This document shows positions 55,172-60,450 of a DNA stretch of 60,450 nucleotides, in pieces. Made by a program: the position numbers and the translations under genes. The notes beneath the pieces were generated by a model, which had not been told where the DNA came from, did not search any database, and was given only the letters and a program-made list of their open reading frames with translations. The stretch is from a virus: positions 1 through 60,450 of IMG/VR virus record IMGVR_UViG_3300017735_000007, one strand, 5' to 3'. How positions within the stretch are numbered: the first letter of the stretch is position 1; each line of letters opens with the position of its first letter.

Positions 55172-55609
55172 TCATACAGTGGAAGGTTCAAACCAAAGAA
55201 CTACAAAAAATATAAAGGAGACCCAACAAAAATCTTTTATCGTTCTCTTTGGGAGAGAAGATTTATGGTTTATTGCGATGGAAGTGCTTCTATATTAGAA
55301 TGGGGTAGCGAAGAAGTAATCATACCTTACAGGTCACCTCTCGATAATAGAATCCATAGATACTTTCCAGACTTCTATATTAAGTATAAGAATAAACAAG
55401 GTAAAATTATTCGTGAAATCATAGAGGTGAAACCTAAAAAATATCTTTCGCCACCTAAAGAACCCAAAAGAAAAACCAAAAGATACTTAACAGAAGTATC
55501 TAACTATGCAGTAAATCAATCAAAGTTCAAAGCTGCCGAAGAGTTTTGTGCTGAAAGAAAACTTGCATTTAGAATATTAACAGAGGACCATTTAGTACCA
55601 AAAAAATGA
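55169..55609 (+). CDS. 4: Head completion protein gp4
   Basis: This 146-aa protein is strongly conserved with T4 gp4 (150 aa): MSYSGRFKPKNYKKYKGDPT, KIFYRSLWERRFMVYCD, ILEWGSEEVIIPYRSP, HRYFPDFYIKY, and EIIEVKPKKYLSPPK. The PDFY/EVKP pattern with upstream E is that of a PD-(D/E)XK-like nuclease fold (catalytic candidates D in PDF and E-x-K in EVK). It is thought to finish filled heads. It is the first gene of the plus-strand block and overlaps the next gene by 4 nt. Confidence 0.93.
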   Translation: MSYSGRFKPKNYKKYKGDPTKIFYRSLWERRFMVYCDGSASILEWGSEEVIIPYRSPLDNRIHRYFPDFYIKYKNKQGKIIREIIEVKPKKYLSPPKEPKRKTKRYLTEVSNYAVNQSKFKAAEEFCAERKLAFRILTEDHLVPKK

Positions 55610-59131: not shown

Positions 59132-59839
59132 ATGGGTTTACCGATACAGACTGCACCCTCGTATAATTGCGAATTACCAGTCAGCAAAACAAAGGTCAAG
59201 TACAGACCTTTCCTTGTTAAAGAACAAAGTTTTCTTTTACAGGCAAAAGAAAGTGCCGAAGCTTCTGATATTTTCAGTGGCATATTAGACTTAATTAAAT
59301 CAGTGACGGACGGAAAGGTTGATGCGAACAAGATACCAATTGCTGATTTAGAATATTTGTTTTTACAGATAAGGTCTAAATCGATTGGAGAAAGTGTGAC
59401 TCTTCCTTTAATCTGTCAAGCATCTCCAGATTGTGATGGCATATCTAATCAAGAAATAAACTTGGGTGATATCAAAGTCGACACAACTGGTATGCAAGAT
59501 AATAAAGTAAAACTGAACGAGAACTTAATCGTTGAACTTCAACCACCTCTAACTAAACTAGTAATGAAGTTAGAAGGTTTAGATGAAGCAGAAACAATCT
59601 TACCAGTTTTAAGAGAGTGTATGGTTAGACTCTTCGATGATGAGAATGTATTTGAGTTATCTGAGTATAGAGATTCAGAAATTAATGAATTTATCGAAAG
59701 TTTAACAGTGACACAATTTGAAAAGATATCTGAGTATTTTGATGCAGTACCATCACTTAAACATAAAGTGGAATGGACTTGCCCAAAATGCAAAGAAGAA
59801 ACTTCAGTAGAATTACAAGGGCTTAACAATTTTTTTTAA
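59132..59839 (+). CDS. 26: Baseplate hub / tail assembly protein gp26-like with zinc-ribbon cysteines
   Basis: This 235-aa protein resembles the T4 base plate family PF12322 (gp26, 208 aa): MGLPIQTAPSYNCELPVSKT, KVKYRPFLVKEQSFLLQAKE, PIADLEYLFLQIRSKSIGES. It has two cysteine pairs, C95/C101 (CQASPDC) and C217/C220 (CPKC), which could form one zinc site. It ends with ...LQGLNNFF and its last two codons are TTT TTT, part of a slippery run of eight T just before the stop. It is followed with a TAATG overlap by a 62-aa ORF in the -1 frame. An AGGAG ribosome site precedes the start. Confidence 0.8.
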   Translation: MGLPIQTAPSYNCELPVSKTKVKYRPFLVKEQSFLLQAKESAEASDIFSGILDLIKSVTDGKVDANKIPIADLEYLFLQIRSKSIGESVTLPLICQASPDCDGISNQEINLGDIKVDTTGMQDNKVKLNENLIVELQPPLTKLVMKLEGLDEAETILPVLRECMVRLFDDENVFELSEYRDSEINEFIESLTVTQFEKISEYFDAVPSLKHKVEWTCPKCKEETSVELQGLNNFF

Positions 59840-59858
59840 TGTCCCTTTCGCATGAGAG
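59830..59858 (+). promoter_or_regulatory. Candidate programmed -1 frameshift site (T TTT TTT)
   Basis: Eight T at 59830-59837. In the gp26-like frame the heptamer reads T TTT TTT (59830-59836) with the stop TAA immediately after. A -1 slip reads TTA ATG and continues into the 62-aa ORF, giving a 298-residue fusion. A weak 5-bp hairpin (CTTTC/GAGAG, 59845-59858, one G-T pair) begins 8 nt after the slippery site. Six other TAATG junctions in this window lack such a heptamer. Confidence 0.6.
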
Positions 59859-60027
59859 TATAGTTAATTATTATACAACTAACTTTCAGATGATGCAACA
59901 CCATAAGTATTCATTGTCGGAGTTAGAAACAATGATACCATGGGAAAGGGAAATATATATCAAGATGCTGTTAAATCACCTTGAAGAAGAAAAGGAACGC
60001 CAGAAGGCGCAACAAAATAGGAGATAA
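59839..60027 (+). CDS. Small tail-assembly partner (62 aa), possible frameshift product
   Basis: This 62-aa helical protein (SLSHESIVNYYTTNFQMMQH, HKYSLSELETMIPWEREIY, IKMLLNHLEEEKERQKAQQ) lies in the -1 frame relative to the gp26-like gene. The motif IPWEREIYIKMLLNHLEEE resembles the E-prime/GT type C-terminal extensions of phage tail assembly chaperones and small proteins following gp26 in marine T4-like phages. It can start at its own ATG (TAATG overlap) or be made as a fusion through the slippery site. T4 gp51 (249 aa), the assembly catalyst, is not visible elsewhere in this window. Confidence 0.7.
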   Translation: MSLSHESIVNYYTTNFQMMQHHKYSLSELETMIPWEREIYIKMLLNHLEEEKERQKAQQNRR

Positions 60028-60029
60028 TT

Positions 60030-60401
60030 ATGGCTAAAGATAACGATAGTAATGAAGTCGAAATTGACCTGGATAAGTATATGGCCCTCATCGAAAAACT
60101 CGATGAACAAGAAGACCAAATCAAGGAGATGAAAGAGGATGCAATCGCAGCCAGAAATCAACTTGAACCAAAGAAGAGAACATTTGGAGACTTATTCTTA
60201 GATGACAATGATGTGAATGAAAAATCAATTATTGGTTTTATATCATTCTTCTTAATGGTCGTATTTGGCATTACAGATTTAGTGACTGCTCTAGTTTGGG
60301 ATATGGACCTAAAAGTATCTGAAACAATCTACACATCATTTGTAGTTGTGACATTGGGTGCATTTGGAATATCAGAAGCTGGAAAAGCGTTCGGAAAGTA
60401 A
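60030..60401 (+). CDS. Two-span membrane protein with N-terminal coiled coil
   Basis: This 123-aa protein has residues ~10-45 as an acidic coiled-coil helix (DKYMALIEKLDEQEDQIKEM), then two hydrophobic spans at ~66-90 (SIIGFISFFLMVVFGITDLV) and ~98-118 (TIYTSFVVVTLGAFGIS). Such topology fits a holin-like or inner-membrane anchor protein; the location in the hub/tape-measure region also fits a tail-associated membrane protein. No family recognised. Ribosome site AGGAG upstream; no promoter box before it. Confidence 0.65.
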   Translation: MAKDNDSNEVEIDLDKYMALIEKLDEQEDQIKEMKEDAIAARNQLEPKKRTFGDLFLDDNDVNEKSIIGFISFFLMVVFGITDLVTALVWDMDLKVSETIYTSFVVVTLGAFGISEAGKAFGK

Positions 60402-60421: not shown

Positions 60422-60450
60422 ATGCCATTACCAAATCCCAGCGCTAATCA
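60422..60450 (+). CDS. Start of the next gene (truncated by window edge)
   Basis: An ORF begins ATG CCA TTA CCA AAT (MPLPNPSAN...) and runs off the window. By analogy with other contractile tails, where the chaperone pair precedes the tape measure, this or a nearby gene could encode the tape-measure/hub protein. Only nine residues are visible, so this is context inference. Confidence 0.4.

Follow-up and report, generated by a model that had tools for sequence, protein, structure and literature searches.

A conserved poly-T slip site and two predicted lengths of a tail assembly chaperone at a gp26-like locus of a T4-like phage

Introduction

Is a 62-residue open reading frame (ORF) that overlaps the stop codon of a gp26-like phage gene a gene of its own, or is it the end of a longer protein reached by a -1 frameshift? 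The question is raised by a 60,450-nucleotide stretch of viral DNA, IMG/VR record IMGVR_UViG_3300017735_000007, which we refer to as the window. An earlier note, made from the letters alone, proposed a programmed frameshift after the manner of lambda G/GT. We examine the site itself, the two domains that it would join, its conservation in relatives, and the RNA downstream. The locus is, with high confidence, a T4-like tail assembly chaperone locus where a -1 slip on T TTT TTT would add a long form, TAC-NC, to the short form, TAC-N.

The slip site and its phase

Read directly from the window, the gp26-like ORF (59132-59839, 235 aa) ends in ...AAC AAT TTT TTT TAA. The slippery heptamer T TTT TTT lies at 59830..59836 (+) within the 0-frame codons AAT TTT TTT, and is followed at once by the TAA (59837..59839, +) that terminates the short form and that a -1 slip would bypass. 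The heptamer is in X XXY YYZ phase, closes the 3' end of the short gene and, with the first base of the stop, makes a run of eight T's (AAT TTT TTT TAA TG). Reading across the junction in the -1 frame gives N-F-F-L-M-S-L... without interruption, for a product of 235 + Leu + 62 = 298 aa. On both points, the phase of the heptamer directly before the TAA and the gapless passage into the 62-aa ORF, the letters agree exactly with what the earlier note had read. Eight nt upstream of the heptamer, the sequence AAGGG (59817..59821, +) can be seen directly and is a possible internal Shine-Dalgarno-like stimulator; purine-GG is frequent at this place in relatives, though not strict.

How uncommon is such an arrangement? 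An in-phase 3' heptamer with a long open -1 extension is found in 2 of the window's 132 ORFs of at least 60 aa. The second is A AAA AAA followed by TGA (55600-55609), and precedes a 198-aa HAD-like ORF in the open -1 frame. The absence of a heptamer from the window's other TAATG overlaps had been offered as an argument against chance; it holds to the extent that the second site is an ATGA and not a TAATG overlap, but is weakened by the presence there of an in-phase heptamer with an open -1 frame. Such a site, taken alone, could therefore be chance, and the window sequence by itself would not be decisive for a frameshift at 59830-59836.

The A-run stands directly before the TGA of a gp4-like head closure gene, is retained in the related loci L002-L007, and in L010 is located one codon further on. 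An A-rich coupling site is one possibility, a second slip site another.

Two domains of a chaperone

The upstream protein, TAC-N (gp26-like tail assembly chaperone, short form, 235 aa; 59132..59839, +), matches PF12322 T4_baseplate in a profile search (168.6 bits against a cut-off of 24.5; E 2.1e-49) as well as phrog_150 (gp26, baseplate hub; E 1.2e-51). Its AlphaFold2 model (pLDDT 88) resembles gp26 proteins from many phages in a structure search. Among solved structures only the HK97 tail assembly chaperone 2ob9 stands out, with a Z of 7.3 (next chain, 2.7) that, like any Z below 8, is on its own no proof. By this match, which covers residues 1-85 (83 residues aligned, rmsd 3.9), the model of TAC-N carries the HK97 tail assembly chaperone fold. 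A sequence-based search of solved structures returned nothing relevant.

The 62-aa domain matches phrog_634, 'baseplate hub assembly catalyst' (gp51), over positions 58-118 of 121 (E 9.3e-28), and the extreme C-terminal part of phrog_150 (positions 237-277; E 1.2e-4). On these matches and on alignment, the -1 frame extension (Leu + 62 aa; 59836..60027, +) is TAC-C, the gp51-like C-terminal domain of TAC-NC. The T4 proteins have the same parts: T4 gp26 aligns to the TAC-N profile, and the gp51 proteins of T4 and Aeromonas phage 25 align as TAC-N then TAC-C in one reading frame, with a separate gp26 as TAC-N alongside. The in-frame fusion in T4 gp51 and the 2ob9 fold match both back the proposed analogy with tail assembly chaperones.

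The locus had also been placed just before the tape measure gene, and this needs amendment: a 123-aa ORF (60030-60401) intervenes, with a coiled-coil-like start, a hydrophobic C-terminal half, and no family match in profile searches. The tape-measure-like ORF starts at 60423, and the window ends after its first codons (60423..60450, +). A longer contig, L131, shows it at 653 aa, with a partial, low-complexity match to the phrog_23574 tape measure family (E 2.4e-7).

Conservation across relatives

We compared gp26 loci drawn from IMG/VR, together with named phages, and reduced them to a non-redundant set of 85 junctions (<90% identity). Setting aside the in-frame gp51 of the T4 group, T TTT TTN is present in the gp26 frame at every locus with both domains detected, and at all these junctions TAC-C occupies the -1 frame, with a fixed spacing from the heptamer. 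Retention of the T-run in relatives that keep both ORFs had been named beforehand as the test on which the proposal could fail; the run is retained throughout, a decisive result in its favor. The heptamer is TTTTTTC in 43 of the 85 junctions, TTTTTTT in 31, TTTTTTA in 9, and TTTTTTG in 2; its last base is free, tolerating both Phe and Leu, and the six T's are invariant. The 0-frame stop follows at 0, 1, 2, 3, 8, or 9 codons. Six T's and a -1 register that are kept while amino acids and stop position drift form the pattern predicted by frameshifting, and not by separate genes.

The codon that leads into the run is AGT, AAT, GAT, TCT, GGT, or GCT, ending in T in 85/85. In the gp26 bodies the same codon families end in T 2433 times and in C 749 times (24% C). 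A T-run due to chance or codon bias can be dismissed, given a preceding wobble base that is always T and amino acids that vary.

At five loci (L062, L089, L090, L106, and L125) the 0-frame runs 8-9 codons past the slip site, and both frames are coding there. T TTT TTN is absent at gp26 in Stenotrophomonas phage IME-SM1, Klebsiella phage May, and Vibrio phage D509; these three are outside the counts, as the TAC-C profile found no such domain in them. In May (L035, about 2720-2900) and D509 (L046, about 2700-2880), gp26 is directly followed by a -1 frame that contains an 'MPW' motif like that of TAC-C, and Ackermannviridae-like phages such as these may use another slip site.

The same comparison bears on how an extra base might be gained. 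RNA polymerase slippage on the 8-T run could add a U to some mRNAs and fuse the frames, and transcriptional slippage is known at run lengths near eight T's. In most relatives, however, the run stops at six T's before a C or A, and it always keeps to T TTT TTN; transcriptional slippage would not require a single ribosomal phase of this kind. We regard polymerase slippage as extremely improbable, and ribosomal slippage as the reading to carry forward.

A start codon that many relatives dispense with

Might the 62-aa protein instead come from a normal gene of its own, its translation begun through stop-start coupling at TAATG and the T-run merely coding a conserved NFF end? In the window phage the ATG (59839..59841, +) directly overlaps the stop; the TAATG overlap is shared by close relatives, G-x-x-F-F is conserved at the protein level, and many databases annotate two genes. 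Against this, the ATG lacks a Shine-Dalgarno sequence and is not conserved. It is kept in the nearest relatives of the window; relatives only a little further off, which share the T-run and the immediate stop, have ATC (L052), GTA (L053), or ATA (L057, Methylophilales phage Melnitz-1) at this codon. Across the set, the first nine TAC-C codons are free of ATG, GTG, and TTG in 45/85 relatives, contain GTG or TTG only in 19/85, and include an ATG in 21/85. Where there is no start codon, TAC-C is expressible by frameshift only. The T-run moreover survives a change of the second Phe to Leu (TTA, TTG) and variation in the preceding residue, and the stop drifts while the -1 register stays fixed. A separate gene is thus very improbable; since the ATG is not conserved, the 62-aa 'ORF' is, from the sequences compared, best read as the C-terminal domain of a fusion.

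A mixed arrangement would combine the two routes, with a frameshift fusion and, in the window's clade, a C-terminal domain also made on its own from the ATG that overlaps the stop. The ATG in this clade and in the 21/85 relatives speaks for it, and its lack of conservation speaks against it, as does a search for Shine-Dalgarno-like sequences at these ATGs, which found them in 0/21. We think it unlikely, and take frameshifting into a fusion as the preferred reading of TAC-C expression.

RNA structure downstream of the slip site

The earlier note had pointed to a weak 5-bp hairpin 8 nt after the heptamer. That hairpin is present (CUUUC-GCAU-GAGAG, 59845..59858, +; 59845-59849 pairing with 59854-59858), but a much stronger fold competes with it: the 120 nt 3' of the heptamer have a folding energy of -33.9 kcal/mol, a z of -5.0 relative to dinucleotide shuffles. 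In this fold a candidate long-range stem pairs 59842-59849 with 59944-59951 and 59851-59854 with 59939-59942. Its 5' arm (59842..59854, +) begins 5 nt after the heptamer, and its 3' arm (59939..59951, +) lies inside the codons of a PWERE motif.

Covariation supports the long stem. Over 80 ungapped relatives 72% of cells are paired, and 65 cells are changed on both sides, compared with 33 in shuffles. The covariation score is 0.223 against 0.149 in shuffles (0/500 reach it), and versions of the stem slid along the alignment score at most 0.194. The wobble-wobble pair +8/+113 ranks first of 990 third-position pairs, and +11/+110 ranks sixth. The stem is in the minimum-energy fold of 48/85 relatives, against 33% expected from codon-shuffled versions. 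The 120-nt fold has a z of -1.86 over relatives at the site, and gp26 control windows give -0.64 to -1.09 under the same null, so that -1.86 is not a strong signal by itself and only the excess counts. Given these stable controls and the share of 48/85, the stem is probably lineage-specific. It is a likely stimulator in the window's clade, as far as folding and covariation can indicate.

The 5-bp hairpin can be set aside as a general stimulator: its mean z across relatives is -0.34. It is strong in some lineages. Just after the heptamer, L072, L082, and L091 have local stems of up to 7 bp with 4-nt loops (GACUAUC/GAUAGUC, GACUCUC/GAGAGUC, GGCUCUC/GAGAGCC), the 7-bp hairpins being perfect in L082 and L091 and similar in L072. 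These stem-loops carry compensatory changes between lineages, and offer an alternative stimulator to the long-range stem.

Synonymous changes give a more equivocal picture. Between the window and L010 (comparison 59132-60024), the last gp26 codons carry 15/31 synonymous differences and the first 40 codons of TAC-C only 2/38; the opening 47 codons of gp26, at 4/41, are likewise low. Across all pairs the contrast is weaker (about 0.31-0.38 vs 0.37-0.53), so recombination may account for part of the low divergence, and the near-identity of 2/38 loses force as a sign of strong RNA constraint. Either RNA constraint or mosaic recombination may lie behind it. We hold only tentatively, as something less than an even prospect, the full proposal: a conserved long-range stem of about 12 bp, with a 5' arm beginning 5 nt past the slip site and a 3' arm some 90 nt on that coincides with the codons of the signature PWERE motif, stimulates the frameshift in this branch.

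Relation to known systems

The earlier note knew of no such arrangement described for a T4-type gp26 locus, but one was published in 2022. Vladimirov, Gautam, and Davidson (2022, Virology 566:9-15) reportedly found frameshifting conserved in several T4-like groups, with T4 itself using genes 26 and 51. Papers that cite the 2022 study refer to it for -1 frameshifting at gp26/gp51 (PMC12846349, PMC10885494), for poly-T slippery sites in TAC-N genes of T4-like phages (PMC12846349), and for T4-like phages with separate short and long genes instead (PMC10885494). For cyanophages, literature searches for a prior description turned up only papers citing that study. To judge from these citing papers, the window locus is a well-supported new example of the TAC-N/TAC-NC system already reported for T4-like phages, and no new phenomenon.

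Compared by way of PMC12846349, the 2022 system and the window share the same proteins, the -1 strategy, and a poly-T site in TAC-N; as far as that citing paper shows, the window differs in its uncultured marine lineage and candidate long-range stem. As far as could be seen, what is new here is this candidate stem, covarying across relatives and with a PWERE-coding 3' arm. T4 itself has corresponding domains, gp26 being TAC-N and gp51 TAC-N plus TAC-C, but its two forms are separate, divergent genes that involve no frameshift. The TAC locus of the Vandenendeviridae/Andersonviridae (phage Adele, PMC12846349) likewise has a -1 frameshift at a T-rich site at the TAC-N 3' end, with a GTTTTT motif in place of T TTT TTN.

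Lambda G/GT is a more distant parallel. Its heptamer is GGGAAAG, in contrast to T TTT TTT in the window, and we saw no sequence homology between the lambda and window proteins. Lambda has a siphovirus tail, the window phage a contractile T4-like one, and in the window one 123-aa gene separates the chaperone from the tape-measure-like gene.

Proposed mechanism and implications

We propose that most ribosomes on the gp26-like gene stop at the TAA and yield the 235-aa TAC-N. In a minority, both tRNA-Phe would re-pair on UUU UUU after a shift of one base backward at T TTT TTT, and translation would continue to the 298-aa TAC-NC with its gp51-like C-terminal domain; we infer both the slip and its rate. 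RNA structure about 5 nt downstream probably helps the slip, by way, in the window's clade, of the long-range stem closing on the PWERE codons. As with lambda G and GT, TAC-N and TAC-NC together would then form a coat on the tape measure protein and bring in tail tube subunits.

If the stem stimulates frameshifting, the PWERE-coding stretch would be under both protein and RNA selection, and the stem is a testable RNA stimulator. The reading of the locus as one chaperone would also connect the separate genes 26 and 51 of T4 with the frameshift arrangement. Finally, it would correct the annotation of a very common marine T4-like gene pair, a baseplate hub subunit and a 'baseplate hub assembly catalyst', to one chaperone in two lengths, whose second ORF is unable to start alone in more than half of the relatives examined.
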